A stretch of DNA of 64,000 nucleotides, from contig JACREQ010000105.1 in the NCBI GenBank assembly GCA_016218155.1, positions 62,001 through 126,000 of the forward strand, written 5' to 3'. Shown here piece by piece: positions 33,601-50,730 of the stretch; position 1 is the stretch's first letter, and each line of letters begins with the position of its first letter. Under the pieces are notes generated by a model that had not been told where the DNA came from, made no database searches, and was given only the letters and a program-made list of their open reading frames with translations. Origin of the DNA: Bacteroidia bacterium. Lineage in GTDB: Bacteria > Bacteroidota > Bacteroidia > Bacteroidales > GWA2-32-17. The position numbers were made by a program, and so were the translations under genes.

Positions 33601-36497
33601 CCTGTCCAGCTATATGTAGCACCAGAAACAGAAGGTGTTGTTAAATTAATTGCTGATGCTGAACAAACAGGCGAATTACTTGATGCTGTTGGCATAGCAG
33701 GTGCAGCAGTTACAGTCACTGTAGTTGAGCCTGGAAGACTGGTACAACCTGTTTGAGTTACTGAAACAGAATAAACACCTGCCATTGTTGTGGTTGCATT
33801 TGTTATAACAGGATTTTGAGAAGTAGATGTATAGGAGTTTGGTCCCGACCAAGAATACGATGCACCACTAACTAAAGGAGTAGTTAAATTAATTGAAGCC
33901 CCTGCACATACCGGTGAACTACTTGTAGCAACAGGAGTGGCAGGAATCGGATTAACTACCATTGTAATTGTATTCGAAGTTGCTAATGTAGGACTTGCAC
34001 ATGTTGCATTTGATGTCATAACACAAGATACAGTATTTCCGTTTGCTATAGCTCCGTTTGTGTAAGTTGGACTATTTGTCCCAACATTAGCTCCATTTAA
34101 CTTCCATTGATAAGAAGGAGTTCCACCATTTGTAGGAGCTGCTGTAAACGTTGTTGAAACACCTGCACATATTGTTGAGTTACCAGAAACAACAACTGAT
34201 GGAGTAAGGCTCGCATTAATTGTTAAATTTGTTCCGTTATCACTTCCGGTTGTTGCCGGAGTACTTGCAATAACTCTAATTCTGTATCCGGTTCCTGTTG
34301 CAGTTCCAGCAGGTATAGTAGCTGAAATTGTTCCCGATGTAGTACTTGTTAAAGTACCAATATTAACAGGTGTTGCAAAACTTCCAGTTGCATTAGATAG
34401 CTGAGCAGTAAAAACATTTCCTGCAGTAAACGAACCAGACATTGTAAAAGGAACACTAACTGCAACGCCGGCACAAAATGGACTTCCGGATATTGTTCCT
34501 GAAGTTATTGAATTTGTTGAACCTGTAATTGTAAAATTCGCATTAGAAATATCAAAGAATATATTATTAGCACCTTTAACCATCACCCTGCATGTTGTTG
34601 AAGGATTATTTGGAACAGTAATAGTTTCAGTACCATCATTTGGTGTATTTGTAAGTAATGCTACAGGATAAGTATAACCACCATCTGTTGATAAGAAAAT
34701 ATCAACATTAGCGCAACTTACCGGCGAAGCAGTAGTACCGGCAACATTCCAAGTTACAGTTTGTGTACTTCCAGCAGCCCAGGTAACCGCAGTATTTGGA
34801 GCAGAAACGGTAAATGGTCCAGCAGTGCCATTAACTGTAACAACCATTAAATCATTAGCTGTTTGACCACCACCTGTTTTATTATCTCTTGTTACTAAAG
34901 AAAAATTCATTGTTCTGCCAACTGATGGAACAACTTCGTACGCAGGAGTTAAATTATTAGCAATTATAGAAGCAATTGCAGGAAAATATCTTTTTGGATC
35001 TGTAGTTCCTTTTCTTGAACGAAACATTGGGCCTACAGTCCATGTAGCAATAGGTGCTGTTGCAGCAGGAGCCTGTGCGGGATCATTTTGTTCCCATGTA
35101 TAAGTAAGAGCATCACCATCAGGATCAGTTCCTGTTCCTGTTAATACAAAAGCAGTTGATTTTGGAATTGTATAGTCTGCGCCTGCATTTGCAGTTGGTG
35201 GGTTATTTGAAATATTTATTACTTGTGCACAACTCGAACTATTTCCTGATTGAACATTTGCAGATATATCTCTGATATTAACATATGCAAAATAATCATC
35301 GCTGTTTGCTTGTATATTGTAAGAACAAATACCTGCATAACCCATAATAGTGCTACCGCTTGTAGGTTCAACCTCTGTTGAACCACTTCCACTTCTGCTA
35401 CAGGTATTCATTGTATGATATCCTCCAAACTGATGTCCCATTTCATGCGCTACATAATCAATATCAAAAGCATCACCAGTTGGATTTGATCTACCTGTCA
35501 TTCCTCTACCTTTATGTGTTCCTGCCTGAGTTGATGTACTACCTAAGCAGACACATGCAATACACCCTGCATTTCCTCCACCTGAAGTATTAAAATTATG
35601 ACCAATATCGTAATTGGAAATTCCAATATTTGCATCAATAGTCTGAGCAGTTTTAGTATTAAACTCACCCGACCAAGGATCTGTTGTTGTACTTCCGAAC
35701 CATAAAATAATATCATTATTTGCAATAAGTTCCATAGTAATAGATAAATCTTTTTCGTAAACACCATTCACTCTTGTCATAGTAATATTCATCTGAGCAA
35801 GAATATTAGCTCTTTTTGCAGCATCTGTAGTTGCAGATCCAATAAATAAATTTCCATATTCAGCATTACAACAAAGGGCCAATCTGTATTTCCTAAGTTT
35901 TTTATCATTTGTAGCCTTAGTTGTAATATTCTCTTCATCCTCATGGTGACCATTAGCATCATCCATTGTACACTCAAAATCTGCAGCATCAGTTCTTATC
36001 ATATCCTTTTTTGAATAAACCATGTATTCTGTAAAATCTGTAGAATATGGATCAATAAAGCTGGTACCATCATCTTCATTAAAAATCATTCCATGTAATC
36101 CTCTTTGGTAAGAAACACTAAATCTTATAGATACTGCAGGATTATCAACACCATGACCAGCATAAGATTTAATACCCGGATATTTCGCTGCCAAATCAGG
36201 ATGCATTATCGGTGCCTCAACAACACTGTAGGTTACAAACTGACCATCTGAACCAGGAAAACTAACGAACAACTCATTTCCCTTAGAAAACTCTCCCCTC
36301 ATTGGTGCACTTTCCAATGCCTCGTTTAAACTCTCTAAATCAAGCGTATAAACACTATAATAATTAACAGCAACTCTGTTCGAAACTAATTCTTTACCTT
36401 TTGCTGATGAATTTGATTCAGTCCAGTAATTCTGACTTTGAGCAAAAAAGAAACTAGTAATTACTAGTATTGCCGTTAAAAGTGATTTTGTATTCAT
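30669..36497 (-). CDS. giant secreted M12B-like metalloprotease with PKD/Ig-like repeats and T9SS sorting domain
   Basis: The 1942-residue protein has a signal peptide (MNTKSLLTAILVITSFFFAQ) and a pro-region. A reprolysin-type zinc protease domain follows with HEMGHQFGGYH (His351, Glu352, His355, His361) and a Met-turn TIMGYAG (Met385). Next come Ig-like and fibronectin-like modules of about 90 residues, a PKD domain (STWLWNFGDGQSSTSQSPSH), and three nearly identical 70-residue modules (DQxVCxGTxVTLSGxGATxYTWDNG) close to the C-terminus. A type A sorting domain ends the protein (ISIYPNPSHGIINIAFEKEM, SKGLYFINI). Signal peptide and sorting domain imply export by T9SS and attachment to or release from the surface. 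It probably degrades proteins in the environment; the substrate is unknown. It has a strong promoter of its own. Confidence 0.88.
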   Translation of the reverse strand: MNTKSLLTAILVITSFFFAQSQNYWTESNSSAKGKELVSNRVAVNYYSVYTLDLESLNEALESAPMRGEFSKGNELFVSFPGSDGQFVTYSVVEAPIMHPDLAAKYPGIKSYAGHGVDNPAVSIRFSVSYQRGLHGMIFNEDDGTSFIDPYSTDFTEYMVYSKKDMIRTDAADFECTMDDANGHHEDEENITTKATNDKKLRKYRLALCCNAEYGNLFIGSATTDAAKRANILAQMNITMTRVNGVYEKDLSITMELIANNDIILWFGSTTTDPWSGEFNTKTAQTIDANIGISNYDIGHNFNTSGGGNAGCIACVCLGSTSTQAGTHKGRGMTGRSNPTGDAFDIDYVAHEMGHQFGGYHTMNTCSRSGSGSTEVEPTSGSTIMGYAGICSYNIQANSDDYFAYVNIRDISANVQSGNSSSCAQVINISNNPPTANAGADYTIPKSTAFVLTGTGTDPDGDALTYTWEQNDPAQAPAATAPIATWTVGPMFRSRKGTTDPKRYFPAIASIIANNLTPAYEVVPSVGRTMNFSLVTRDNKTGGGQTANDLMVVTVNGTAGPFTVSAPNTAVTWAAGSTQTVTWNVAGTTASPVSCANVDIFLSTDGGYTYPVALLTNTPNDGTETITVPNNPSTTCRVMVKGANNIFFDISNANFTITGSTNSITSGTISGSPFCAGVAVSVPFTMSGSFTAGNVFTAQLSNATGSFATPVNIGTLTSTTSGTISATIPAGTATGTGYRIRVIASTPATTGSDNGTNLTINASLTPSVVVSGNSTICAGVSTTFTAAPTNGGTPSYQWKLNGANVGTNSPTYTNGAIANGNTVSCVMTSNATCASPTLATSNTITMVVNPIPATPVATSSSPVCAGASINLTTPLVSGASYSWSGPNSYTSTSQNPVITNATTTMAGVYSVSVTQTGCTSLPGSTTVTVTAAPAMPTASSNSPVCSASAINLTTPSVSGATYSWTGPNGFTSTQQNPVIPSATAAMAGTYSVTVLQGACPSTPGSTSILVNTSPVANFNASPIATVCSGFVQFTDNSTGSPSTWLWNFGDGQSSTSQSPSHDYLSSGTYSVTLTAANNCGNNQIVNTNYVTVNVPDIPTGTGATICGAGTATLNGTGTGVLHWFDAATAGTDLGIGTTFTTPSITNTTTYYLENHISQASQYVGPVAAGANNTTSYYISFDCSVPVVLVSVSVTASAAGNRTIELRNSASAVLQTTTVNIPAGTSRINLNFNVPVASGLQLYIGTGANLTRKTTGVSYPYTLAGLVSITGSSAGTTRFPYFFDWEVKEPDCVSARVPVIATVNTALPASVNVTASSSTICSGTNVTFTASPTNGGTTPIYQWSVNGSPMGTNSPTYSNSTLANNDIVTCVMTSNGSCVSGSPATSNSITMSVNSTFTPSVSIIGNSSICSGTSTSFTAIPVNGGTPVYQWQVNGLPVGTNSSTFTSSTLLSGNTVSCIMTSGLACAAPVNATSNVITLTVNPTVTPLVSISPSSSTICSGTSVVFTATPVNGGTPTYQWILNGTNVGTGGDTYTNAALLNSDVVSCVMTSTVSCPATPTATSNNVVMTVNPIPSVDAGADQVICEGTAVTLSGNGATTYTWDNGVTDGIAFIPLAGSITYNVTGTLNGCSNTDQVVVIVNSLPVVSAGIDQEVCAGTTVTLSGSGATTYTWDNGVTDGIAFIPLAGSITYNVTGTLNGCSNTDQVVVTVNSLPVVNAGLDQTVCVGTSVTLSGSGATSYTWDNGITDGVSFIPSAGTLNYTVTGTINGCSANDVVTITVNEVENYSVSVIDPIASVTSLLNATYQWIDCDNGNANIPGETNTDFSPMVNGNYAVVVNQNGCSSTSSCVQITVTGISENMDYGLISIYPNPSHGIINIAFEKEMNEVDFVIENVIGQRVFERKSSQTMGSVMTIDLSAYSKGLYFINIKNQNTDLRYKIILDK
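31182..31800 (-). repeat. three tandem ~210-bp repeats within the metalloprotease gene
   Basis: Three consecutive copies encode the GxDQxVCxGTxVTLSGxGA module. The second and third copies (around 31381-31590 and 31591-31800) share long exact stretches at a spacing of 210 bp, for example bases 31444-31502 and 31654-31712. The first copy is more diverged. Such near-identity at DNA level points to recent expansion or conversion. Confidence 0.85.
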
Positions 36498-36537
36498 ACT
36501 TAAGTATTAAAATGGTTTATTTTTTGGCTTAATAAAA

Positions 36538-36569
36538 CAAATTTATTGAACAATTGAGTTAAAAACAAA
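36538..36569 (-). promoter_or_regulatory. promoter of the giant metalloprotease gene
   Basis: On the minus strand TTTG (36566-36569), a 20-bp spacer and TAAATTTG (36538-36545) match the Bacteroidota consensus exactly. The predicted leader is about 33 nt. Confidence 0.7.
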
Positions 36570-36620
36570 TGTTATTCATAATAATTACAATGCTTTTCAT
36601 GATTTTAAACAAAAACTCTA

Positions 36621-36650
36621 AATCCATTTAGTCGCAAATCTAAATGGATT
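36621..36650. repeat. perfect 11-bp inverted repeat upstream of the propeller kinase
   Basis: AATCCATTTAG and CTAAATGGATT flank an 8-base loop. There is no T-run right after it on either strand, and both adjacent genes diverge from here, so it is not a normal terminator. It could be an operator or a transcript structure. Confidence 0.5.
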
Positions 36651-36814
36651 AAGATTTTAAGATTTAAATAAAAATTTATCAACTTTTAGACTGAACATTT
36701 CCAAAAAAGGTTGTTTTATACAAAAACTGCCTATTTACTCTTAAATTAAAACATTGAAATGATTTTTTGCATTTCTCGAAGAAAATATGCAGGTTTGCAA
36801 GCAAATAAAAAAAG

Positions 36815-39790
36815 GTGAAAACAATAAAATCTATTTTAAATTTTAAAAAATCCCTTTGGTTTATTCTTTTTCTACTTGTTGTTAACATTTGTACTTACGC
36901 ACAATCCCCGGTATATAAACATTATTCTGTTGCAGATGGTCTTCCATCATCAGAAGTATATCATGTTTTTCAGGATTCAAAGGGCTATATCTGGTTTGCT
37001 ACTGTAAATGGTGTTTCGCGGTTTGATGGCTATGAATTCAAAAACTTTAGCTACGAAAATGGACTACCAGATAATTCTGTTTTTGAAATTTATGAAGATT
37101 ATAAAGGACGTATCTGGTTTATCCCATATTCATTTAAACTATCATATTTCGAAAATGATACTATTCATGAATATAAATATAACGATAAATTTATTTCACA
37201 GTTTAAAATATATGCTAGTCCCGCAAAAAGAGGTTTATATATTGACAAAAAAGACAATTTATATATAAGTGATATTTTAAACGGTATTTTTAAAATAAGC
37301 AATAATGGAATTTGTAAAAAAATAGTTTGCAAAACAGCCGGCATGGTTTATATTATTGACAATAAACCTCTTTTTAAAGTAACTTATGTAAATAATAATG
37401 AAATAAGTGTAATAAGAAGTAACAAAATAACCGGTTCTATCGAGACTAACGATTTTTATCCTAATCAAATCACTCCTCAGGTTCAATTATATGGCAATAA
37501 AATATATCTAACATCTGATAAACACCTTACTGTTTTAGAAAATGATTGCTTTAAACAAAAATTTGAATTTAAATCTACAATATATTGGATGTGTTTTGAC
37601 AACACAAAAAAACTTTGGATGGGATTTGCAGATAAAGGAGCATGTTATTTTGAAGACGGAAATCTTAACAAATGTTCAGATATTAAGTTTTTGCCGGGTA
37701 AATCTGTAACTTCAGTTTTAACTGATAAAGAAAATGGCATATGGTTTACTACAATAAACGACGGAGTATATTACCTTCCTTCATTATTTTTTCTTAGCTA
37801 TACTTTAAAGGATGGACTGACTTCAAATTATGCCGGTGCAATTGCTGCAAGCCATGATACTCTTTGGGCCGGTTTAAACGGAGGTAATATTATTCGAATC
37901 TCATCGAAATCAAAAAAACTATTTAATATTAAAAAAGAGCAACAGTTCTATTCTATGGTTTATAGCTCCAATTCTGGCAATTTGTATTTTGGTGGTAGGT
38001 ATTCTGCCGGAGTTATTTCAAAAGATTTAATTAATCAATATAGAAACGATCATCCGAGTTATTCAAACACACCCGATTTATGGCTTTCGTGTAGAAATAT
38101 ATTGCTTACTGGTGAAAACAGTTTCTGGTTTGGTTATTATAACAATTTAGCACATATTGAAAATGGGCATTTAACATATCACTCAAATGCTAATGATAAC
38201 ACTCAAATGAGAGTAGGAGCATTATGTTTAGATAATGATTCTACTCTTTGGATTGGCAGTTATAAAGGATTATGGAAATACATAAAACCAAAATCCGGAA
38301 TATCAGGTGGGGATTATATATATTTTGGGGATAAAAATCCATTACTTAAAACAAGAATATTAGACATAAAAAAAGACAAAGAAGGAACTTTCTGGATAGC
38401 CACAAAAGAAATGGGCATTATTGTTTATAACAAAGATACGATATACCAGATTACTACAAAAAACGGCCTATCAACAAATACAGTGTCCAAATTATTAATT
38501 GATAAAAATACTGTTTGGGCAGGTACTAATAATGGCCTTAATAAAATTACAATCAACGTCGGAAATAATAAGAAGTTTACTATCCAAAAGATTACTACAA
38601 CTTCAGGATTAGTCTCTAATGAGATAAACGATCTTGCAATGTCTGGTTCAATAATTTATGTAGCAACTCCTGAAGGAATAACTTTTTTTGACTCAAATAA
38701 CATTAAGCCCAATACTTCTTTTCCTCCAATTGTAATAAAATCTATAAAAATAAATTTTCACGATACTCTTATTCTTAACAATTACGAATTAAGTCACAAT
38801 TATAACAATATAGAAATAAATTTTGCCGGATTATCTTTTCATAATGCCGGAAAGATATTTTATAAATATAAAATGACAGGTGCCGGTAATGAGTTTAATT
38901 TTACTACAAGTCCCACTGTACAATACCCTGCATTAACACCCGGAAACTACTCATTCGAAGTATATGCGGCAAATGAAGAAGGCAATTGGAATAATAAACC
39001 TTTAAGAATTCAATTTATTATTAAACCACCATTTTATAATACCTGGTGGTTTATTGTGATTTCTATATTAGTTCTAATAACAATAATCTGGATGGCATTT
39101 GTAACAAGATTAAAAAGAATAAGAGAAAAAAACAAAACTCGTAACAGTCTATATCAATACATGTTAAAAGCACTTGGACAACAGATGAATCCGCATTTCA
39201 TTTTCAATTCTCTTAACTCATTACAATATTATATTTTACAAAATGATAAAACAAAATCATCCAGTTATCTCGAAAAATTTGCATCGTTAATGAGATTAAT
39301 ACTTGACAACTCACAAGAACAATTAATTTTATTAAGTAATGAATTAAAGGCTGTTGAATTATATCTTGAATTAGAACAAATCCGATTTAAAGAAAAATTT
39401 GATTTTGTAATTAATGCAAAAGAAGAAGATACTTTAAATTATAAAATTGCACCACTATTATTACAACCTTTTGTTGAGAATGCCATACATCATGGTTTTT
39501 TAACAAAGGAAGATAAAGGTCTTTTAACAATTACGATTGAAAAAAAAGAACAAGTTTTACATTGTATTATAGAAGATAATGGCATTGGAAGAGAAGCAAG
39601 TGAAGCACTTAAAGCAGGTAGAGTTATTAAGCGGCGCTCATTAGGCACAAGAATTACTGCAACAAGAATAGGAATAATTAACAATTTGTACGGAACAGAA
39701 ATGACAGTTAAATATATTGATTTAAAATCACATGATGGAAAAGCTATAGGAACTCGTGTTGAAATTTTGATACCAATTCTTGCACAATAA
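36815..39790 (+). CDS. propeller sensor histidine kinase, LytS type
   Basis: The 991-residue protein starts at a GTG (an in-frame stop lies just upstream and no ATG fits the signal peptide). After the signal peptide (ending TYAQ) come beta-propeller blades (VADGLPSSEVYHVFQDSKGY, IWFATVNGVSRFDGYEF and later IWFTTINDGVYYL, LWIGSYKGLWKY), then a Y_Y_Y domain and a membrane helix (about 745-768). The cytoplasmic part is a LytS-type His_kinase: QQMNPHFIFNSLNSLQYYI with phospho-acceptor His794, LLQPFVENAIHHGF (N box) and IIEDNGIGREA (G box). It should sense a periplasmic signal and phosphorylate the LytTR regulator encoded 51 bp downstream. Confidence 0.9.
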   Translation: MKTIKSILNFKKSLWFILFLLVVNICTYAQSPVYKHYSVADGLPSSEVYHVFQDSKGYIWFATVNGVSRFDGYEFKNFSYENGLPDNSVFEIYEDYKGRIWFIPYSFKLSYFENDTIHEYKYNDKFISQFKIYASPAKRGLYIDKKDNLYISDILNGIFKISNNGICKKIVCKTAGMVYIIDNKPLFKVTYVNNNEISVIRSNKITGSIETNDFYPNQITPQVQLYGNKIYLTSDKHLTVLENDCFKQKFEFKSTIYWMCFDNTKKLWMGFADKGACYFEDGNLNKCSDIKFLPGKSVTSVLTDKENGIWFTTINDGVYYLPSLFFLSYTLKDGLTSNYAGAIAASHDTLWAGLNGGNIIRISSKSKKLFNIKKEQQFYSMVYSSNSGNLYFGGRYSAGVISKDLINQYRNDHPSYSNTPDLWLSCRNILLTGENSFWFGYYNNLAHIENGHLTYHSNANDNTQMRVGALCLDNDSTLWIGSYKGLWKYIKPKSGISGGDYIYFGDKNPLLKTRILDIKKDKEGTFWIATKEMGIIVYNKDTIYQITTKNGLSTNTVSKLLIDKNTVWAGTNNGLNKITINVGNNKKFTIQKITTTSGLVSNEINDLAMSGSIIYVATPEGITFFDSNNIKPNTSFPPIVIKSIKINFHDTLILNNYELSHNYNNIEINFAGLSFHNAGKIFYKYKMTGAGNEFNFTTSPTVQYPALTPGNYSFEVYAANEEGNWNNKPLRIQFIIKPPFYNTWWFIVISILVLITIIWMAFVTRLKRIREKNKTRNSLYQYMLKALGQQMNPHFIFNSLNSLQYYILQNDKTKSSSYLEKFASLMRLILDNSQEQLILLSNELKAVELYLELEQIRFKEKFDFVINAKEEDTLNYKIAPLLLQPFVENAIHHGFLTKEDKGLLTITIEKKEQVLHCIIEDNGIGREASEALKAGRVIKRRSLGTRITATRIGIINNLYGTEMTVKYIDLKSHDGKAIGTRVEILIPILAQ

Positions 39791-39841
39791 AATATTTTAT
39801 TATAAGTTTAAAACTCAAAAATTTAATAATATCCTGAATTT

Positions 39842-40594
39842 ATGATTAGAGCTATAATAGTTGACGACGAACTAGACTCTATAAGTTCTACAAGATTAAT
39901 ACTTGAGGAGTTTTTTAAAGACAAAATAAAAATTACAGGAAGCTTTCTTGACCCAAAAAAAGCATTAGAAGAAATAAAACTTAATCCACCCGACTTATTG
40001 TTACTTGATATAGATATGCCCGGGATGAGTGGTTTTGAGCTTTTAAAAGCATTACCTGTCTGTAATTTTGAGGTTATTTTTATTACAGCTTACAACCAAT
40101 TTGCTATAGAAGCATTCAATGTTCATGCTGCCGATTATATATTAAAACCTGTTTTTCCCGAACGTTTAATTGACACTATTAACAAAATACTTAATCGCAT
40201 ACCACAACCTAAAAGCAAAAATGAAAAATACGACCAGATACTATGTTTTCTTGAAGGACAATTTATGAGGCGTATTTCTATTTCATCTACAGAAGGTGTG
40301 GAATACATTCCGGCAAGTGATATTTTATATGTTGAAGCCGATGAGGGTTACAGCTATATTTTTTTAAAAGATCGTAAAATTACAACAACAAAAAAACTTA
40401 ATCTGTTACTCGAAGAATTAGGTGAAGCTTGTTTTTATCGATGCCACCGTTCATTTCTGGTAAACATACAACATATTACAAAATATTCTGCAAAAGAAGG
40501 CGGCTATATACAAATGACTAATAATGCCCTAATCCCTTTAGCGCGCCGTAACAAAGATGAATTTTTAGAGCGCATGGTAAAGTTTTCTGTATAA
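39842..40594 (+). CDS. LytTR-family response regulator
   Basis: The 250-residue protein has an N-terminal receiver domain with the acidic pocket VDDE (8-9), phospho-acceptor Asp56 in LLLLDIDMPGMSGFELL, and the conserved FITAY and LKPV (Thr and Lys) segments. A LytTR DNA-binding domain follows from about residue 145 (ILYVEADEGYSYIFLKDR, YRCHRSFLVNIQHI, IPLARRNKDEF). It is the expected partner of the preceding LytS-type kinase. Targets are not known, but the two large secreted-protein genes directly downstream on the same strand are plausible. Confidence 0.93.
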   Translation: MIRAIIVDDELDSISSTRLILEEFFKDKIKITGSFLDPKKALEEIKLNPPDLLLLDIDMPGMSGFELLKALPVCNFEVIFITAYNQFAIEAFNVHAADYILKPVFPERLIDTINKILNRIPQPKSKNEKYDQILCFLEGQFMRRISISSTEGVEYIPASDILYVEADEGYSYIFLKDRKITTTKKLNLLLEELGEACFYRCHRSFLVNIQHITKYSAKEGGYIQMTNNALIPLARRNKDEFLERMVKFSV

Positions 40595-40627
40595 CAATAG
40601 TTGGTATATCCAAACAAATAGCCTTTT

Positions 40628-40654
40628 TGTCATACTGAGCGAAGTGAAGTATCT
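40628..40654. repeat. single copy of a dispersed TGTCATnCnGAG-type repeat
   Basis: The sequence starting TGTCATACTGAGCGAAGTGA and running into GTATCT resembles the half-units of the array at 47801-48285 (TGTCATCCAGAGTGAAG... GTATCT). It belongs to a class of short intergenic repeats seen in many Bacteroidota genomes. It lies in the 273-bp gap between the LytTR gene and the next secreted protein. Confidence 0.6.
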
Positions 40655-40867
40655 ATTATAACAATTCCTTTTACCGTTCAGAGTTAAAATCCTACCGCTC
40701 ATGAAACCGATTTAGGCTTTCATGAAATTACCCCTTATACCTATATAACCAATAACTATTTTCACACATCCCAAAATAATTTTTGGTGATAGCGAATGCC
40801 GAAAAGCTTAAAGAGTAGGCTGCTAATTAATGAAATTATAATCTAATAACAACCTAAATAAATTAAT

Positions 40868-43800
40868 ATGAAAATTAAAATCACATTTTTAGTTTTGTTT
40901 TTGTTAATAAATCTTATAATTAAAAGCCAAAACAATGATTTCAAAATCGGAATCCTTTTTTCAAATTCTATGATGAATCAATCACCGATTGTTAATGGTC
41001 CGTATTTGGGTTCTAATCAATTAAGTTTTAGTACTAAAACAACATATATTTTAGGACAAAATTATAATACTAGTCCCTTAAATATTATATCTGAAGACGG
41101 ATTTAACTCAGTATATTTTTTTGAACCTAATTCGTATCAAATGTCAGAAAATCAATACAGAAAAACGCTAGATCTTATTAAAGCAAATAATTTGACAACC
41201 TTTGCACATTCACAATTGTGGTATGTGCCTAATTATCCTAATTCTGGTGGTAGAAATGTTTATGATAATAATTTAAGTCTACCTTATAATCCCAATTCAG
41301 GATGTTCAAATTACCAGAACCAAGCTGAAAAATTAAATAAGGCTAGACCAAACTATTTAAGTTTTTCAAATATCTATAAAGATCCATTATACAGTAATGT
41401 TATTTGGGGTCATGATATAGCAAATGAGATGAATTTTGCACATCCGTATAATTATTCATGTGAACCTTTATATTTACAACAATATATGGCAAATGGTGAA
41501 ATTCCTCCAAGTAATGTTAGCGATGCTATAGCTTATTTTAAAAGTAATTTGATTCCTTCCTCACAAAAAACTGTAGTTGCAGTTGTAAATCACCTTAAGT
41601 CTATAAATAGCAACTCCAATGATGCAGAGTATAATGGAACTAATGAATATCAGAACTCTCCAATTGATTATGATCCTCAAGTATATCTCGATATTGAAAA
41701 CAAACCAGATATTTTAATGGATGGTTCATATTATCAATACCCGGTTTCTGATTGGTGGCAGAATTATTATCTATATAGTAATATTTATAATGTTCCAACA
41801 CCTAATACAAATTATGGTAAACACTATTTGGGAAAATTTGCAAGTTTTGATTTTTTTAGAAAAAAAGGTTATAATCAAATACAAACTTGGATTTCTTGTG
41901 AAAGATACTGGCCTCCTGATGAAGATCATCCCAATGGAACTGATTTAATTGCTGCATATAACACAACAAATATTTATAATGCAAACTATATATGGCTTCA
42001 ATCATATACATCGATAATTCATGGTTGCCAAGGTATCTGGCTTTATGTAATGGAGGATTATGATGCATCAACTTCAGAGCAAAACAATAAAATTTATATG
42101 TTTAATCAAATTGCAAATCCGCCGGCTGAAAGATTAGATAGGTATAATAGACAGTATTTTTCGAGTAATTATAAGGATTTTATCAGTAATTTAGGAAAAG
42201 AACTTAGATATCTTAAAAACCGTGGTTTTTTATCTACCGATCCAAATTCAATATTATATACTAAAACAAATCAGGTTGATCCTAATTGTATTGTTCCTCC
42301 TGCATCTTCTTATATCCCTACAAACTTTCCCACAGGTTACGGACCTGGTGGTGCGTTACCTACAGATTTGAGAACTGAAAATTATGGTCTGAGGTATACA
42401 ATTCGAACTAATGGCACCACTGCAGTAATGATAATCTCAAATCCTTTAAATATACCCATAACTGCGACATTAAATTTTGATAATATTTTAAATCCGATTA
42501 TTGACAATTCTACTGGTGTTAAAGTATTGTTTGAGAGTTTTAGATGGTCTCCTACTTCTTCTTCTTATAAAACAGCTCCCTATAGAAATTCTGGCATAAC
42601 TCTTAATAATGATCCAAATCTCAATACTGTTAATCTTTGGTATAATATCATGTATTCAGGCAATAAAAACTTAACTTTAACATTCGGCCCATCAGATGTA
42701 CATGTTCTTGAATTTATTACTTCACCAGTTGGTGATTATAAAAATGGATGGGATAAAGTGTGGTCAAATGAAAATTTATCTTTTATCGGTAGTTATCAAA
42801 ATGGATGGACAATTTCGGATAATGATAAATTTATTCCTGGTGATTTTGATGGTGATGGAGCTCAAGAATTACTCTGCATTCAGTATTTAAATAACAACGC
42901 ATATGCAGGGTTATATAAATTTCAAAATAACAATTGGAATTGGGTTTGGGATAATAGTGGAAATGGGAAAATAAATAGTCTTAATCAAGGCTGGTCAATT
43001 TTACAAACAGATAAGTACTATGTAGGTAAATTTTCCAATTCTGGTCGTGATGAAATCTTATGTGTTCAGACAGGAAATAATGCATATATAGGATTATATC
43101 AGTTTAATAATGGTAACTGGCAATGGATTTGGGACAATCCCACTGGCTCAAATTTAAATTCATATAGAGGTAACATAACAATTGGCGATTATGATCATGA
43201 TGGTTATTCTGAGTTATTTGGAGTTGGCAATTCTGATATGAAAATGTTCAACTATCAGTCAAATTCATGGGTAGCTGCTTTTACAGGTAGCACATCGCAT
43301 CCAATGTGGCCATACAGAAATAATCTTAAATCAGGTGATTTTGATGGTCAAGATGGTCAAGATGACCTACTGGGTATTGCATCTTGGGCTACAGTATTTT
43401 ATTATAACACATCAAATAACTCTTGGAATTGGGGTGAATCAAGTGGTGGAACAAATATGGGAGGATGGACCTTGCCCGCAGCATCAAATGATATCTGTTT
43501 GACAGGTAATATTGATGGTGACATTAAATCAGAAATATTATGGATTAGAAAGGGAGAACATCTTGCAAATTCTATGGAAGCAAAAACAGGTTCTTTTTAT
43601 TCAAATTGGTCTAATGGAAGTAATTTCATAATTAACGATTGGATTAATGAGGCAAATTCAAATTACTTGCTAATTAAAGCTGTTGCTAATGAACCAAAGT
43701 ATTTAATTGCTTACAAAAAAACTTCCTGCCAACAGAAATACTTATTATCAATGTTCAAATCAGTAAACGGCTCTAACAAATCTACAAATTATCAGTCTCA

Positions 43801-44065
43801 AACAACTGAGATATCAACAATTGAAGAGATGGTTCATTTTTATCCAAATCCAAGTGAAGGTAAAGTTTTTGTTAATTCAGAAAAAAGTGGAATCTTATCA
43901 GTTGAAATCTATAACAATCAAGGAAAGAGTATCTTCAGAAAAACATGCTATTCTGAAAGAGAAATTCTAATAGACATTTCTGATCAACCAGATGGTATAT
44001 ATTTAGCAAAACTCGTAGATGAAAAAGGTAAAATCTTTACAAAAAAATTAGTTCTCTCAAAATAA
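40868..44065 (+). CDS. large secreted protein: glycoside-hydrolase-like N-domain, FG-GAP-like module, T9SS sorting domain
   Basis: The 1065-residue protein starts with a signal peptide (ending LIIKSQ). Residues ~25-420 look like a TIM-barrel glycosidase of the GH-A clan type. IWGHDIANEMNF (Glu187) resembles the acid/base strand, QTWISCERYWPP (Glu345) could hold the nucleophile, and GCQGIWLYVMEDY resembles the last strand. I cannot name a family. A beta domain follows. From about 650 to 890 comes an FG-GAP/VCBS-like module with Asp-rich calcium loops (GDFDGDGAQELL, GDYDHDGYSELF, GDFDGQDGQDD). A type A sorting domain ends it (HFYPNPSEGKVFVNS, QPDGIYLAKLVDE). The C-terminal module is nearly the same as in the next protein, 8 bp away. 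The N-terminal function is an inference. Confidence 0.75.
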   Translation: MKIKITFLVLFLLINLIIKSQNNDFKIGILFSNSMMNQSPIVNGPYLGSNQLSFSTKTTYILGQNYNTSPLNIISEDGFNSVYFFEPNSYQMSENQYRKTLDLIKANNLTTFAHSQLWYVPNYPNSGGRNVYDNNLSLPYNPNSGCSNYQNQAEKLNKARPNYLSFSNIYKDPLYSNVIWGHDIANEMNFAHPYNYSCEPLYLQQYMANGEIPPSNVSDAIAYFKSNLIPSSQKTVVAVVNHLKSINSNSNDAEYNGTNEYQNSPIDYDPQVYLDIENKPDILMDGSYYQYPVSDWWQNYYLYSNIYNVPTPNTNYGKHYLGKFASFDFFRKKGYNQIQTWISCERYWPPDEDHPNGTDLIAAYNTTNIYNANYIWLQSYTSIIHGCQGIWLYVMEDYDASTSEQNNKIYMFNQIANPPAERLDRYNRQYFSSNYKDFISNLGKELRYLKNRGFLSTDPNSILYTKTNQVDPNCIVPPASSYIPTNFPTGYGPGGALPTDLRTENYGLRYTIRTNGTTAVMIISNPLNIPITATLNFDNILNPIIDNSTGVKVLFESFRWSPTSSSYKTAPYRNSGITLNNDPNLNTVNLWYNIMYSGNKNLTLTFGPSDVHVLEFITSPVGDYKNGWDKVWSNENLSFIGSYQNGWTISDNDKFIPGDFDGDGAQELLCIQYLNNNAYAGLYKFQNNNWNWVWDNSGNGKINSLNQGWSILQTDKYYVGKFSNSGRDEILCVQTGNNAYIGLYQFNNGNWQWIWDNPTGSNLNSYRGNITIGDYDHDGYSELFGVGNSDMKMFNYQSNSWVAAFTGSTSHPMWPYRNNLKSGDFDGQDGQDDLLGIASWATVFYYNTSNNSWNWGESSGGTNMGGWTLPAASNDICLTGNIDGDIKSEILWIRKGEHLANSMEAKTGSFYSNWSNGSNFIINDWINEANSNYLLIKAVANEPKYLIAYKKTSCQQKYLLSMFKSVNGSNKSTNYQSQTTEISTIEEMVHFYPNPSEGKVFVNSEKSGILSVEIYNNQGKSIFRKTCYSEREILIDISDQPDGIYLAKLVDEKGKIFTKKLVLSK
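42805..43520 (+). repeat. C-terminal FG-GAP-like module, copy 1 of an inter-gene duplication
   Basis: This coding segment is closely similar to 44924-45640 in the next gene (offset about 2.12 kb). Long stretches are identical apart from third-position changes, for example around the sequence encoding GKFSNSGRDEILCVQ and QWIWDNP. It shows duplication of a domain onto two different catalytic domains. Confidence 0.85.
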
Positions 44066-44072
44066 TATTGTT

Positions 44073-46208
44073 ATGAAAATAAACAAAATAATAAAACTTT
44101 TATTTATCAGTGGACTTCTGTTACCGGATCTTTTAATGGCCCAAACAAATATTGATTTATTCATACTAGCAGGGCAATCAAACGCTCAGGGATTAAAAGG
44201 CCTCGCTCAATATTATCCATCTAATCCTTCCTTAGATAGCCAAATAAAACTTTATTGGACAAATTGGTGGGCAAATCCTGTAACATCCGGCAATTGGGTT
44301 TCAATGCAAACTCAGCCAGGTGGTGTAAACGATAGTCTAATTTTTGGGCCAGAAGTAACATTTAGCAGAAGACTAAAATTAAATGGTTATAATCCTGCAA
44401 TTTATAAATGCGCTATCCCAGGCACTAATATTGGTTCAAATTGGGGTCAGCCAGGTAGCCAAGATTTTTATGATGACATGGTTAGTGATTTACAAGCTGC
44501 TATAGCTAGTTTACAAAGTCAAAAGAAAATTGTTACAATAAGGGGTTTAATATGGATTCAAGGTGAGTTTGATTCTGATAACCAAACTTACGCAATGCAG
44601 TATGAAACAAAATTAATTAATATCATCAATGATTTCCGAAATCATTTTGGCTCAAATCTTCCAATATTATTAGGTGTTGATGAACAATATTCGGGACCAT
44701 TTATTAATTCAATAATTCAAGCACAAATGTCAATTGCAAACACTCTTCCTAATGTAATATTTACAAGTATGTATGGATTACAAAAAGCTCCAAATGACGG
44801 CACACATCTTTCTCCAGAGGGATTGGAGGAGCATGGGGAAAGATTATATAATTATTACATGTCAATGTTAACAAATAAATGGGAAAATAAATGGTCAAAC
44901 TATGGTACTAGTCAAATTGCTGGCCATACTGTACTTTCTACTGATAATTTCTTCCAAGGTGATTTTGATGGCGATGGTTCACAAGAATTACTTTGTATTC
45001 AAAGTTTAAATAATAATGCATATGCGGGATTATATAAATATCAAAACAATGATTGGAATTGGGTATGGGATAATGGCGGAAATGGTAAAATAAATAGCCT
45101 TAATCAAGGTTGGACTATTTTGCAAACAGATAAATTCTATGTAGGTAAATTTTCCAATTCTGGTCGCGATGAAATCTTATGTGTTCAAGCGGGAAATAAC
45201 GCATATGTTGGCTTATATCAATTTAACAATGGCAACTGGCAATGGATTTGGGACAATCCAATTGGCTCAATCTTAAATCTGTATAGATCCAAACTAACAG
45301 TTGGTGATTACGATCATGATGGTTATTCAGAGTTATTTGGAGTAAGCAGTTCTGATATGAAAATGTTTAATTTTCAGACAAATTCATGGGTTGCTTCTTT
45401 TACTGGAAACTCCTCACATCCAATGTGGCCATATAGAAGTAATCTTAAATCTGGTGACTTTGATGGCCAAGATGGTCAAGATGATCTTATAGGTATCGTC
45501 TCGTCTTGGGCTACTGTATTCTACTATCATAATAATGACAATAGTTGGAATTGGGGTGAAAGTAACGGTGGAGCAAATAATGTTGCCGGTTGGACACTTC
45601 CTGCACTTACTTCTGATATTTGTTTAATTGGGAATATAGATAATTATGATTTAAAGGATGAACTCTTCTGGCTGCAGACCGGAACAAATGCAGCATGGGC
45701 AACAACTATGAACGCTGGAAACGGAAATTTTACTGCTGGATGGACAACCAATGCAACTCCCCCATTTATTGATGACTGGTCATTAGCAAATAATGGTGGA
45801 CTTAATTCAAAATATTTATTAATTAAAGCAAAAATAAATGAACCAGAATATTTAATGACAATGCGAAGTTTTAATTCAAATTATTTAATTAATATGTATA
45901 AAACGACAACTCCTTCTAATTACAAAACTCAAAATCTGGAAGTATCAAAAAATGAAGATTTAGAATATGACAATTTATGCATTTTTCCAAATCCAACAAA
46001 TGGTAAAATAAATTTTCTTATTAAAGACAAAGGCAACCAATTGGTCGAATTATTTAATAATCAAGGAACTCTTTTACATAAAAAGGAGTATAATTCAGAA
46101 TTGAATATTCAGCTTGATATTTCTGACCAGCCAAATGGAATTTACCTTATTAAAATAACAAATTGTAATGATAAGACAACAATGAGTAAAGTTCTTTTGC
46201 TTAAATAA
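44073..46208 (+). CDS. secreted SASA/CE6-like carbohydrate esterase with FG-GAP-like module and T9SS sorting domain
   Basis: The 711-residue protein has a signal peptide (ending LLMAQ) and an SGNH-type esterase domain of the sialate O-acetylesterase/CE6 class. Motifs are LFILAGQSNAQGLKGLA with nucleophile Ser36, LIWIQGEFDSD and NDGTHLSPEGLEEHGERLY with Asp242 and His245. It probably removes acetyl groups from a polysaccharide. Residues about 290-530 carry the same Asp-rich FG-GAP-like module as the previous protein. A type A sorting domain closes it (CIFPNPTNGKINFL, QPNGIYLIKI). The gap to the preceding gene is only 8 bp, so the two are almost certainly cotranscribed and may attack the same glycan. 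Confidence 0.85.
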   Translation: MKINKIIKLLFISGLLLPDLLMAQTNIDLFILAGQSNAQGLKGLAQYYPSNPSLDSQIKLYWTNWWANPVTSGNWVSMQTQPGGVNDSLIFGPEVTFSRRLKLNGYNPAIYKCAIPGTNIGSNWGQPGSQDFYDDMVSDLQAAIASLQSQKKIVTIRGLIWIQGEFDSDNQTYAMQYETKLINIINDFRNHFGSNLPILLGVDEQYSGPFINSIIQAQMSIANTLPNVIFTSMYGLQKAPNDGTHLSPEGLEEHGERLYNYYMSMLTNKWENKWSNYGTSQIAGHTVLSTDNFFQGDFDGDGSQELLCIQSLNNNAYAGLYKYQNNDWNWVWDNGGNGKINSLNQGWTILQTDKFYVGKFSNSGRDEILCVQAGNNAYVGLYQFNNGNWQWIWDNPIGSILNLYRSKLTVGDYDHDGYSELFGVSSSDMKMFNFQTNSWVASFTGNSSHPMWPYRSNLKSGDFDGQDGQDDLIGIVSSWATVFYYHNNDNSWNWGESNGGANNVAGWTLPALTSDICLIGNIDNYDLKDELFWLQTGTNAAWATTMNAGNGNFTAGWTTNATPPFIDDWSLANNGGLNSKYLLIKAKINEPEYLMTMRSFNSNYLINMYKTTTPSNYKTQNLEVSKNEDLEYDNLCIFPNPTNGKINFLIKDKGNQLVELFNNQGTLLHKKEYNSELNIQLDISDQPNGIYLIKITNCNDKTTMSKVLLLK
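44924..45640 (+). repeat. C-terminal FG-GAP-like module, copy 2 of an inter-gene duplication
   Basis: This is the counterpart of 42805-43520. Differences are mainly synonymous, plus small indels near the end of the module (for example one extra residue in IVSSWATVFYY versus IASWATVFYY). The pattern suggests duplication followed by purifying selection. Confidence 0.85.
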
Positions 46209-46352
46209 CTTTTTGGAAAACCATTGCACATTATTACCGACATCTGATCAGTTTGCAACAACGATTGATCACTCGTTGATTTAGCAATGTAATCTTAACA
46301 GCAACTTCCTGATGATAACACCATTAATCACACTGACTACAACACCTCATCA

Positions 46353-46427
46353 CACAAGTGTAAGCATATTTGTTTTCGCACAATGCTAATCTGCAAAACA
46401 AAGAAACGAATAAGCTTACATTTTGTG
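46353..46427. repeat. long imperfect inverted repeat
   Basis: The left arm begins CACAAGTGTAAGCATATTTG and the right arm read on the opposite strand begins CACAAAATGTAAGCTTATTC; the arms extend about 34 bases each with mismatches around a short centre. It could be a degenerate miniature mobile element or a transcript structure after the esterase gene. No T-run follows. Confidence 0.45.
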
Positions 46428-46806
46428 TCAACCACTGCTGAGAGCGGAACGATATTTTATTCCAAATATTATACACAGTCATGTTTAGAAAAGGTAATGG
46501 AAAATTTCTATAATAGCTAAATAAGGGATAATGATTTCATTTTAGAAGTTTTTACGATGTTCAGAATTACAAATGCGATACTATCATTTTGAGCACTACC
46601 ACTCCTTCTTCCTTGTTTGAAAAGAAGATGTAGGTTTTAAGAAAAAGAAACCCGATTAATGCGAAGTATTAAATTGTGCTTTTTTTAATATTTTAAATTT
46701 ATTATATAATAATTGATCCTTTTTATCTTATATTTTTTAATAGTGAATTTATACAATAACAAAGCTTATTGTAGCTAGAATAAAAAAACACACCTAAGAT
46801 AATTAA

Positions 46807-46995
46807 TTACTTTTTCGCCTCTTTTGGACTTGCCAACGAAAGTAAAACCCCCAATACTATACCCAAAAACGCAGCAATTACAACACGATATTCTGAGGCA
46901 ACTGAAAAAGTAATTGTTTGCATTGGAATCCAGAAAAAAGGAATAGTTTTTTTAAACACAAAACCCATTGCATTTTCCAGTTTATTTCTTTAAAA
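46807..46995 (-). pseudogene. frameshifted 3' fragment of the Mpv17-like membrane protein gene
   Basis: On the minus strand this segment matches the last ~63 codons of the intact gene at 49999-50730. It encodes NFKEINWKMQW, then after the loss of one G (ATGGGTTTTG here against GTGGGGTTTTA there) continues in the next frame as FVFKKTIPFFWIPMQ, SVASEYRVVIAAFLGIVLGV and PKEAKK with the same stop. Homology ends near 46995, and the 5' three quarters of the gene are missing. It is a truncated, frameshifted copy lying about 3.2 kb from its parent in the same orientation. Confidence 0.85.
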
Positions 46996-47158
46996 TTAAT
47001 TTGTTAATCCTATAAATCTATATAGAGGTGCAAATTTTAATTTTTACCATTATTATTTACACTTTGTTATTTTCACTACATTTATTTTATTAAATTATTT
47101 GTACTTGTGAACAAGTGAACACATGTTTTATAATAAGTTTTTGAAATCAAAATATTTG

Positions 47159-47166
47159 TATATTTG
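47159..47166 (+). promoter_or_regulatory. possible -7 element for the 47193 lipoprotein gene
   Basis: TATATTTG fits TAnnTTTG and lies 27 bp before the ATG. The nearest TTG upstream gives a spacer of 15 bp, shorter than usual, so the call is tentative. Confidence 0.4.
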
Positions 47167-47192
47167 TTTTAACAATAAAAAATTATAGCATT

Positions 47193-47771
47193 ATGAAAAC
47201 AAAAATGTCTTTATTATTAATATCATGTTTAATTAGTATTATTGCATGTAAAAAAGATAAAACTACCAGCCCGGGCAGCTCAACACCTGTAAATACAAGT
47301 GGTACCATGAATTTTAAAATTAACGGCACAAACTATTCTGCAACTTCATATAATAATACTTTAATTAATGCAAGTCAGGGAGGTCAGACTGGCAGGAGAT
47401 TAGATATCAGAGGTTCATTTGCTGGTAATAAAACTTTAGTTTTAACTGTTTCAAACTGGGATTGGCAAAACCCACCGGTAAATGGAATTGTTGTTAAAAA
47501 GTACGACACACAGACTATTGGTCCGAATACCGTTTGTCAGGATATAAGTGGTGGCACATACTGTGATGGTGCATTAGGCACTTATTTATTTGGCTCATCA
47601 TACCATATGACAGTTAGCGAGGTTGCAGAGGGTTATATACAAATTTCATCATGCGAAGCAACAAATAAAAAAGTTTCAGGAAGTTTTTATTTTATTACAT
47701 CTGATTTATCAGAAACGGTATTTGATACTATAGAAGGAACGTTTACAAATCAGGTGTATACTGTACAGTAG
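47193..47771 (+). CDS. putative lipoprotein, DUF6252-like
   Basis: The 192-residue product has a lipoprotein signal peptide with lipobox SIIAC (Cys19) followed by KKDKT. After a Ser/Pro/Thr linker comes a beta-rich domain starting MNFKINGTNYSATSYNNTLI, with RRLDIRGSFAGNKTLVLTVS, and ending in KVSGSFYFITSD and TIEGTFTNQVYTVQ. This arrangement resembles the DUF6252 family of Bacteroidota lipoproteins; the family call is tentative. It is likely anchored in the outer membrane. It stands alone between the pseudogene fragment and the repeat array, so the context gives no function. Confidence 0.7.
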   Translation: MKTKMSLLLISCLISIIACKKDKTTSPGSSTPVNTSGTMNFKINGTNYSATSYNNTLINASQGGQTGRRLDIRGSFAGNKTLVLTVSNWDWQNPPVNGIVVKKYDTQTIGPNTVCQDISGGTYCDGALGTYLFGSSYHMTVSEVAEGYIQISSCEATNKKVSGSFYFITSDLSETVFDTIEGTFTNQVYTVQ

Positions 47772-47800
47772 TTTTGTTAGTAAGAACGAGATAGTATACT

Positions 47801-48285
47801 CTACACTAGATTACCTTCGGTGAAATTGTTTCTCGCTACGTTCGAAATGACAATAGAGTGTTTTGTCATCCAGAGTGAAGTGTAACGTAAGGAAGGATCT
47901 GGTTCGAGATACTTTGTATACTACACTAGATTACCTTCGGTGAAAAAGTTCTTCGCTCTGCTCTGAATGACAGTCTGATTTTTGTCATCCAGAGTGAAGC
48001 GTAGCGAAACGAAGTATCTAGTCCGAGATACTTTGAATACTACACTAGATTACCTTTGGTGAAATTGTTTCTCCTTTCAGTCGAAATGACAAAAAAGGGT
48101 TGCTACAAAAATTAAGTACTGATTTTATTTCTAACACATTGGAGTTTTGTTACTCAGAGCGAAACAAGGTGAAGCGAAGAGTCTAGTTATTAAAAAATAT
48201 TATTTCTTTAAGAATAAATTACATTCTTGTATAATTAATATTGTGATTCTACACTAGATTTCTCGCTACGCTCGAAATGACAAGA
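47801..48285. repeat. array of ~120-bp palindrome-containing intergenic repeats
   Basis: Direct copies begin with CTACACTAGATTACCTT at 47801, 47921 and 48040 (spacing 120 and 119 bp), and a truncated copy starts at 48249 (CTACACTAGATTTCTCGCTA). Each unit carries a TCGCTACG...TCGAAATGACA half and an opposing TGTCATCCAGAGTGAAG half, forming an imperfect palindrome. A diverged half-unit lies at 48149-48185. They fill the 567-bp gap 47772-48338 and contain no open frame. They resemble dispersed REP-like elements of Bacteroidota. Confidence 0.85.
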
Positions 48286-48319
48286 AAAAAGGCTGCTTAA
48301 AAATTTAAGCAGCCTTTTT
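48286..48319 (-). terminator. strong terminator after the DUF2271/PKD gene
   Basis: A perfect stem (AAAAAGGCTGCTTAA with TTAAGCAGCCTTTTT) has a 4-base loop and A/T-runs on both sides. It lies 20 bp past the stop of the minus-strand gene ending at 48339. Confidence 0.85.
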
Positions 48320-48338
48320 AATCATTTAAAACCTAAGG

Positions 48339-49832
48339 TTATTTTTCTAAAACTACTTTGTATTTCGACACTTTGTTATCATCAGAAATATTTAAGAAAT
48401 AAACACCGTTTGGTAATTTGCTTAAATCAAGTTTTTTGCTAGTACCATTAATTTTTGAATCAAGAACTTTATCACCAACGATATTAATTACCTGAACTGA
48501 TGCATTAATTGTATTTTTACTTTCAATGTTTACAATACCTGTTGTTAAATTCGGGTAAACATTTATAGTATTTACTGTATTTTCAACAATACCTGAATAA
48601 GTAAATGCTATTGTATTTGAAGTGGCAGTACAACCATTTACATCTGTAACAATAGAATAATAATTTCCACTTGCAGTTGGAGTATAAGCTGCACCTGTAG
48701 CTGCAACGATAATTCCATTTGCATCATACCATTGATTACCGGTTGTTGCAGTAGAATTTAAAGTACCTGTTGCCTCGGTAATTGTTACAGGAGCTACTGT
48801 GTAAACACCTGTGTTAAATGTTGCAGAAGTTGCTGTTGTTGGGTTTGCACATGTTGCATTTGAAGTCATTGTACAAACAACCGCCTGACCGTTTGTGAAA
48901 ACTGCAGAATATGTATTATTTGTTCCAACAACTGATCCATCAACAGACCATGAGTAAGTTGGAGTACCGCCATTTGTTGGCACAGCTGTTAAAACTACTG
49001 TAGTACCAGGACAAACAGTTGCTGCACTTGGGTTAACAACTACAGAAGGAACAAGAGTTGGATTAACTGTAATATAATTTGTTTGTGTTGATGTATTATT
49101 ACCACTTGCATTTGTAGCAGTTAATGCTACAGTATAAGTTCCTGCTGCAGCATATGTATGTGTTGGATTCTGAACAGTAGATGTTTGACCATCACCAAAA
49201 TTCCATGCCCATGAAGTTGGAGTATTAGTACTTTGATCGGTAAAAGAAATATTTCCATTCTGGCAAATATTTGTTGTATTTGCAGCAAATGCTGCAACCG
49301 GAGCTGCTGCTGCAGGAATCCAATCCAATACCATATTTGTATATTCCGTTTGGTTAGCAGGTGTTAAATGTACAGAAGCAGGTCCCTTGGTAAAAGAAAC
49401 AGTTGTATTTGTTGTAGAAGTTGTGCCATGTTGCCATGTAAATTCAACTCTTACATTATATGTTCCGTCAGGAACAACATTACCAGCAACATCAGTTCCG
49501 TTCCATGAAATAGTCATTGGTGTAGTATAATTAGTTAAAGAAGCACCTGTAGTTGCATCAACAACATTAGAAGCTGAGCTTGCTTTCCATACTAAAAGAT
49601 GGCTATTTGTTCCATGGCCGTCAGCTCTTTTTAATTTGGTTTTCACAAAAGTATTAGAACTGTTTTCTAACCATATTGCACAATAATGATCCAGACCGTA
49701 ACTTCCGTTATGTGAAGTTAAATTAACCGAAAAAGTTAAAGTCCCCGGAGTTTGAGCTTTTGCAGGATTCAAAAAGCTTAATGCAATCATAACTATTGCA
49801 ATAGCACTAATTTTAAGTAGATTTCTTTTCAT
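48339..49832 (-). CDS. secreted DUF2271-PKD-Ig protein with T9SS sorting domain
   Basis: The product (497 residues from the ATG at 49832) has a signal peptide ending PAKAQ. Residues ~28-170 form a DUF2271 domain (YGLDHYCAIWLENSSNTFVK, TTPMTISWNGTDVAGNVVPD, GTYNVRVEFTWQHG). A PKD domain follows (PTSWAWNFGDGQTSTVQNPT), then an Ig-like module, and a type A sorting domain with INVYPNLTTGIVNIES, NGVYFLNISDDN and YKVVLEK. DUF2271 proteins are secreted and of unknown function; some lie next to flavin-transfer proteins. The longer frame to 49898 is rejected because a promoter-like box (49869-49876) falls inside it and the shorter start gives a clean signal peptide. Confidence 0.82.
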   Translation of the reverse strand: MKRNLLKISAIAIVMIALSFLNPAKAQTPGTLTFSVNLTSHNGSYGLDHYCAIWLENSSNTFVKTKLKRADGHGTNSHLLVWKASSASNVVDATTGASLTNYTTPMTISWNGTDVAGNVVPDGTYNVRVEFTWQHGTTSTTNTTVSFTKGPASVHLTPANQTEYTNMVLDWIPAAAAPVAAFAANTTNICQNGNISFTDQSTNTPTSWAWNFGDGQTSTVQNPTHTYAAAGTYTVALTATNASGNNTSTQTNYITVNPTLVPSVVVNPSAATVCPGTTVVLTAVPTNGGTPTYSWSVDGSVVGTNNTYSAVFTNGQAVVCTMTSNATCANPTTATSATFNTGVYTVAPVTITEATGTLNSTATTGNQWYDANGIIVAATGAAYTPTASGNYYSIVTDVNGCTATSNTIAFTYSGIVENTVNTINVYPNLTTGIVNIESKNTINASVQVINIVGDKVLDSKINGTSKKLDLSKLPNGVYFLNISDDNKVSKYKVVLEK

Positions 49833-49868
49833 ATTCTGATATTTAAATTTTTTACTTATTAGAATATG

Positions 49869-49895
49869 CAAATATACCAATACGATGCTATACAA
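49869..49895 (-). promoter_or_regulatory. probable promoter of the DUF2271/PKD gene
   Basis: On the minus strand TATATTTG (49869-49876) fits the -7 consensus. A TTG (49893-49895) lies 16 bp upstream, slightly closer than the usual 19-21 bp. The leader would be about 30 nt. Confidence 0.4.
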
Positions 49896-49998
49896 CATAA
49901 TTATTTAACATATTTTTCACCTTCTGAAATGTTAAAAGATACAAAATTTTAATTTTCAGAAAATTAGAAAGTCAAATTAAACTGTAAACAGAAAATAT

Positions 49999-50730
49999 TT
50001 ACTTTTTAGCTTCTTTTGGAGTAGCCAGAGAAAGAAGGACACCCAAAACTATACCCAGAAAAGCAGCAATAACAACTCTGTATTCCGAAGCAACCGAAAA
50101 AGTTACTGTTTGCATTGGTATCCAAAAGAAAGGAATAGTTTTTTTGAAAATAAAACCCCACTGCATTTTCCAGTTAATCTCTTTAAAGTTCTCTACAAAA
50201 TTTATTGGCCTTAAAAATCCACTTATTGTACCGCCATTTTTCACAATATGAAAATCAGTAATCTTATGAAAAGTCATCATAACCGGAGCATAAAACAAAT
50301 TCATAATTGCACTGATAAAAAAAGCAGAAATTAATCGGGTACCTCCGGCACCTGCAGTATGAGCTTCAAATACATCTTTAAAATTCATAGAGTCTTTTGC
50401 ACCTGCAACCCATAAACATTTTTCTAAAAATGCAGGAACACCGGCTGCAAAGACAACAAAAGCTACTTTAATTGTTAAACCTAAAAATCCCCAGACTATC
50501 ATTCTTGGAATTAATCCGAAACCTTTTTGCAAATACACACCAGCTTTAATACGTAAACCAATAACTTCACCTAATGTTGCTAATAAAGCAAATTTTAAAA
50601 AGCTTGTCCAAATCCAATGCGATTCATTATATAAAAAATTTGTTTGAAATTCTTTTAAAAATGTAAATGGTATGAACGGTGTTACAATAACACAGAAAAT
50701 TAAAATAAATATTAAATCAGCTTTTTTCAT
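49999..50730 (-). CDS. Mpv17/PMP22-like integral membrane protein
   Basis: The 243-residue protein has about five hydrophobic segments. The C-terminal part, FFWIPMQTVTFSVASEYRVV followed by IAAFLGIVLGVLLS, resembles the Mpv17/PMP22 signature (WP..Q..NF..VP...R followed by a last membrane span). The assignment is by pattern and moderately sure. Mpv17 proteins are poorly understood membrane proteins; bacterial roles are not established. The gene lies 57 bp downstream of the acyl-CoA synthetase on the same strand. A truncated, frameshifted copy of its 3' end is present at 46807-46995. Confidence 0.6.
   Translation of the reverse strand: MKKADLIFILIFCVIVTPFIPFTFLKEFQTNFLYNESHWIWTSFLKFALLATLGEVIGLRIKAGVYLQKGFGLIPRMIVWGFLGLTIKVAFVVFAAGVPAFLEKCLWVAGAKDSMNFKDVFEAHTAGAGGTRLISAFFISAIMNLFYAPVMMTFHKITDFHIVKNGGTISGFLRPINFVENFKEINWKMQWGFIFKKTIPFFWIPMQTVTFSVASEYRVVIAAFLGIVLGVLLSLATPKEAKK

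Follow-up and report, generated by a model that had tools for sequence, protein, structure and literature searches.

Two genes that lie side by side in a 64,000-nucleotide stretch of Bacteroidia DNA (the window) encode proteins with unrelated N-terminal halves and a similar C-terminal module, raising the question of how the module came to be shared and what it does for both. The two genes, A and B, are on the same strand with 7 bp between them. A first-pass annotation had described them as adjacent ORFs with unrelated N-termini and a common C-terminal module, and blastp bears this out: A 626–1065 and B 268–711 are 59% identical, while the N-terminus of B is a SASA domain and that of A has no Pfam match. 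The segments assigned to the module at that time (42805–43520 and 44924–45640) correspond to a high-identity core; the homologous module is longer, starting at A 626 and B 268 and ending near A 970 and B 618, and homology extends to the T9SS tails (about 39% identity). Both PF18962 and TIGR04183 score above cut-off at the C-terminus of each protein, which identifies A and B as T9SS cargo. At the level of sequence, the architecture, the homology and the sorting domains are clear (Table 1), and A and B are probably co-transcribed and probably encode carbohydrate-active proteins that are exported to the cell surface.

Table 1. Genes A and B, their domains and the regulatory genes upstream (positions in the window).
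Feature	Positions	Strand	Size	Basis or remarks
Sensor histidine kinase (Reg_prop, Y_Y_Y, His_kinase)	36815..39790	+		Pfam
Response regulator with LytTR DNA-binding domain	39842..40594	+		Pfam
Gene A	40868..44065	+	1065 aa	ORF
A N-domain, residues 22–620	40931..42727	+		GH-A-like barrel (model); no Pfam/NCBIfam model for the family; Glu187 invariant, position 285 acidic
A propeller module, residues 626–970 (end approximate)	42743..43777	+		Pfam FG-GAP_3, model, fold comparison
A high-identity tract, residues 658–883	42839..43516	+		about four blades
A type IX sorting domain, residues 992–1062	43841..44053	+		PF18962 5.8e-12; TIGR04183
Gene B	44073..46208	+	711 aa	ORF
B SASA esterase domain (predicted), residues 27–263	44151..44861	+		PF03629 5e-28; GQSN 34–37, DGTH 242–245
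B propeller module, residues 268–618 (end approximate)	44874..45926	+		Pfam, blastp, module profile search
B high-identity tract, residues 296–523	44958..45641	+		
B type IX sorting domain, residues 637–707	45981..46193	+		PF18962 2.5e-12

The FG-GAP/VCBS fold proposed in the first-pass annotation was recovered by Pfam, fold comparison and profile search alike. FG-GAP_3 matched at 28.0 and 35.5 bits against a Pfam cut-off of 26.9, placing the module with the VCBS/FG-GAP repeats (PF13517, PF01839), and the modelled module aligned to propellers with Z up to 20.5. The motifs GDFDGDG and GDYDHDG occur at A658/A773 and B296/B411. The DxDxDG loop of VCBS-type propellers binds calcium (PMC3123361), and the loops of A and B, to judge by their motifs, may do the same. 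The best fold match is the C-terminal beta-propeller of UmbA4 from Streptomyces umbrella particles (PDB 9oee; Z 20.5, rmsd 3.5, 281 aligned), which is also the sole strong PDB match of the module profile (1.1e-10) and binds a teichuronic-acid-like glycan (PMC13274773). The two have in common DxDxDG-type blades and a place in a secreted multidomain protein. They differ in phylum and partner domains and share 16% identity; moreover, UmbA4 belongs to an antibacterial particle. Among the other fold matches are PVL-type fungal lectins (PVL 2bwr, PAL 5mb4, AAL2 4tqm), VCBS-like propellers found at Foldseek E values of 8e-8 to 5e-7 and Z of about 14, with DxDxDG and GW motifs like those of A and B at about 10% identity. 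PVL has seven regular blades, whereas about five recognisable repeats and a closing segment can be seen in the A/B module. PVL-type lectins bind GlcNAc, and in PVL and tachylectin-2 the GW loop contributes to the pocket that receives the sugar (PMC8023676); the pocket of AAL2 has also been described (PMC4483166). GW motifs lie ahead of several blades in both A and B. By analogy with these proteins, the propeller is most likely a lectin-like accessory module that would bind glycan. Our literature search found no report combining FG-GAP with carbohydrate-binding modules or with T9SS.

Identity between the two modules is mosaic. They had been called nearly identical, which is true of A658–883/B296–523 (83% identical residues) and not of the remainder (about 40%); by codon alignment, protein identity was 42% over A626–655, 83% over A656–870, 45% over A871–975 and 39% in the tail. 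The similarity, said to extend down to long DNA stretches, amounts to 81% over 705 nt in blastn, with a longest exact run of 30 nt. A one-tract model with edges at A658/B296 and A883/B523 gained 32.3 log units of likelihood, compared with a maximum of 12.3 in 300 shuffles. Both edges are sharp and coincide with blade motifs, the first (GDFDGDG) and the last (GNIDGD/GNIDNYD), which gives the tract a length of about four blades. Three relatives stand at much the same distance from A over the core as over the late part (core/late: L024, 34/36%; L025, 38/33%; L029, 35/39%). The core is thus not merely the conserved part of the family, and these equal outgroup distances speak for gene conversion, covering about four blades, rather than for constraint alone. 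Codon usage was only suggestive in this respect: at identical residues the fraction of identical codons was 0.72 over A676–825, 0.59 outside and 0.54 by chance expectation (p 0.08), and the same test over the whole core gave p 0.19.

The wider distribution of the module supports the domain shuffling postulated earlier, because five or more kinds of N-terminal domain are joined to it. The A N-domain has relatives at twelve further loci in Bacteroidota; six of these run into the same module (L024, L025, L026, L027, L029 and L033) and four are without it (L028, L030, L031 and L035). L024, L031, L033 and L035 are apparently contigs of genomes G554, G433, G656 and G589 and are not independent of them. 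The module also follows GH16 in L068, and in L069, L070 and L013 it follows barrels with a carboxypeptidase-regulatory-like domain, which we label GH5-like from reading their sequences, Pfam having scored no hydrolase in them. A DUF5060 protein accompanies it in L067, a partial gene in L011 joins it to a regulatory-like domain, and L066 is a short form with the module and no catalytic head. Its partners (GH16, SASA, DUF5060 and the barrels) thus tie it to carbohydrate-active enzymes. B was the only SASA fusion found among the strong module matches. Scanning genome and viral contigs with the single module brought up no relative. Genes of other genera also place the module after A-type barrels, and a barrel gene of this kind is therefore the probable donor from which the esterase gene acquired it. 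Several irregularities were seen along the way. The N-family gene of L032 (7229 onward) runs into a different repeat that does not look like FG-GAP, and this gene and that of L026 carry an in-frame stop; in L067 (3558–6961) the DUF5060 protein and the module occupy two overlapping frames, as if they were one frameshifted gene. Methyltransf_24 proteins, all of one kind, directly follow the barrel-module genes of L013 (2970–3824) and L070 (8376–9236) and lie beside an N-family gene in L021 (4609–5511).

The N-terminal half of A had been termed glycosidase-like, a description that its modelled fold supports and its sequence does not. Its first 620 residues have no Pfam or NCBIfam match, profiles of the N-family have none in Pfam, NCBIfam or PDB, and a PDB search with the whole of A likewise returned nothing. 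The model of A was built from a 17-row alignment (mean pLDDT 71.5, with several barrel loops below 50); a fold computed without alignment had a pLDDT of 31 and was discarded. In fold comparison the N-domain matched GH164 (6t7g, Z 17.4), GH42 (5xb7, Z 17.2) and GH140 (5msy, Z 15.9), and it also aligned to GH30 and GH5 with Z of about 15; the glycosidase families compared with the A barrel are those in the fold-match list. The N-domain thus has the barrel fold of clan GH-A, best seen against GH164 and GH42, a likeness of fold that is not in itself proof of function. In A, as in GH164, GH42 and GH140 (Z 15–17), strand 4 of the barrel ends with a Glu, and a beta-sandwich comes after the barrel. 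This residue, Glu187 (strand 4 being model residues 158–164), stands where clan GH-A has its acid/base and is invariant in 11/11 relatives. Strand 6 carries an acidic residue at position 285 in 10/11, Asp in A and Glu in most relatives. A differs from clan GH-A in its low identity (8–12%) and in its family having no conserved strand-7 nucleophile: in alignment A3 no acid is conserved in the columns of strand 7, as assigned from a model of moderate confidence. We regard the A N-domain as a GH-A-like barrel and a putative glycosidase. The N-domain of B, with its PF03629 match and its GQSN and DGTH motifs, is a predicted SASA/SGNH-type esterase, CE6-like; it is the sole SASA protein in the host genome and differs from other SASA/CE6-like SGNH esterases (PF03629) in being fused to a propeller and a T9SS tail.

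The pair sits in an accessory block. In three genomes of the same genus (L094, L095 and L096), orthologs of the genes at 30669–36497 and 49999–50730 are separated by about 1.8–2.2 kb, whereas here the two genes flank 13.5 kb (36498–49998) with two further genes besides the kinase, the regulator, A and B. The kinase, the regulator, A and B are all absent at this site in the three relatives, and the block is therefore accessory. In same-genus genomes no match to the kinase exceeded 42% identity, and those found were partial or at 37%. The kinase/LytTR pair is a probable regulator of A and B. Upstream of A we found no clear regulator-type direct repeat and no Bacteroidota promoter pattern, which occurs 8 times in the window against 7.7 by chance. 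A scan of the ORFs from 21877 to 52851, all but two smaller ones, showed no SusC or SusD domain, and the scanned region does not qualify as a polysaccharide utilisation locus of the SusC/SusD type. Downstream of B, at 46801–46997, a 198-bp remnant is 82% identical to the 3' end of the gene at 49999–50730 in the same orientation and records an earlier rearrangement where the block ends. Further T9SS cargo nearby comprises a 1942-aa reprolysin/PKD protein and a DUF2271/PKD protein (30669–36497 and 48339–49898). The upstream two-component pair and the absence of the block from relatives, together with the T9SS tails and the mosaic edges at blade motifs, go beyond the first-pass annotation.

How the two modules came to be so alike admits of other explanations. 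That they are two of many copies of an ordinary dispersed repeat is very hard to credit. FG-GAP is indeed a very large superfamily, and a profile of seven modules run against 395 genomes of the class gave weaker FG-GAP matches in 23 genomes beyond the 10, host included, with strong ones (E <1e-30); these numbers describe a rare subfamily of a wide superfamily. The host genome holds exactly two copies rather than dozens, A and B being its sole FG-GAP_3 proteins, and we rejected the dispersed repeat on that copy number. There was, besides, no match at 1e-5 in four same-genus and five same-family genomes, and the module tree joins A and B as sisters with 100% support. A single duplication without any gene conversion, after which blades 1–4 were strongly constrained in the pair while the last blade and tail of A drifted, is a more serious contender, albeit a somewhat unlikely one. 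It would account for the long late-segment branch of A (0.93, versus 0.16 for B) and for the weak difference in codon identity between core and flanks at conserved residues, but it sits poorly with a core whose conservation across relatives does not exceed that of the late part, with lower synonymous divergence in the core (pS 0.56, versus 0.75 in the late part), and with sharp edges coinciding with blade motifs. Conversion or recombination between the neighbours A and B is therefore the favoured reading, with unequal drift as its rival.

The roles of the domains can be debated in the same way. VCBS-like propellers bind proteins too, and the module could be an integrin-like, calcium-stabilised structural or protein-binding unit that assembles both enzymes into one surface complex or keeps them at a distance from the membrane. 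Integrins and other protein-binding propellers are among its fold matches, and alignment A2 gave weak profile matches to CRTAC1, teneurin and ITFG2; the best match by both fold and profile is nevertheless a glycan-binding propeller, and the fusion partners are mostly carbohydrate-active, which makes this reading unlikely. The barrel of A, for its part, might be a non-catalytic glycan-binding pseudoenzyme, leaving all activity to B. We consider this quite doubtful, for although strand 7 lacks a conserved acid and A has Asp at position 285 where most relatives have Glu, the strand-4 Glu187 never varies among the relatives and position 285 is nearly always acidic. Those same residues could be read more boldly: the A N-domain would be the founding member of a glycoside hydrolase family, hitherto undescribed, whose catalytic acids are non-standard, namely Glu187 (strand 4) and Asp/Glu285 (strand 6). 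The propeller common to A and B would in turn represent a new family of carbohydrate-binding modules, passing from enzyme to enzyme and kept alike inside the operon by blade-register gene conversion. As a whole, this proposal is tentative and rather improbable.

The account towards which we lean, with slightly more confidence than doubt, is that of a regulated accessory pair in which lectin-like propellers would dock a putative glycosidase and an SGNH-type esterase on a single glycan. The adjacent two-component system would induce A and B, and the T9SS tails would export and anchor both proteins. The propellers would hold both activities on the same glycan, in keeping with the one-ligand targeting that the first-pass annotation had raised; there B would strip off O-acetyl groups or the like, and A, through its barrel, would cleave the chain. 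The central four blades would later have been homogenised between A and B by recombination at the repeated blade motifs.

The A N-domain points to an uncatalogued enzyme-like family, spread over those further Bacteroidota loci and lacking a Pfam or NCBIfam model. The module is one of a small set of enzyme-linked propellers, and its nearest solved relative recognises glycans. If it binds glycans as well, it would be a candidate new carbohydrate-binding module, and A and B would offer a natural test of whether copied binding blades tune neighbouring enzymes to one ligand.
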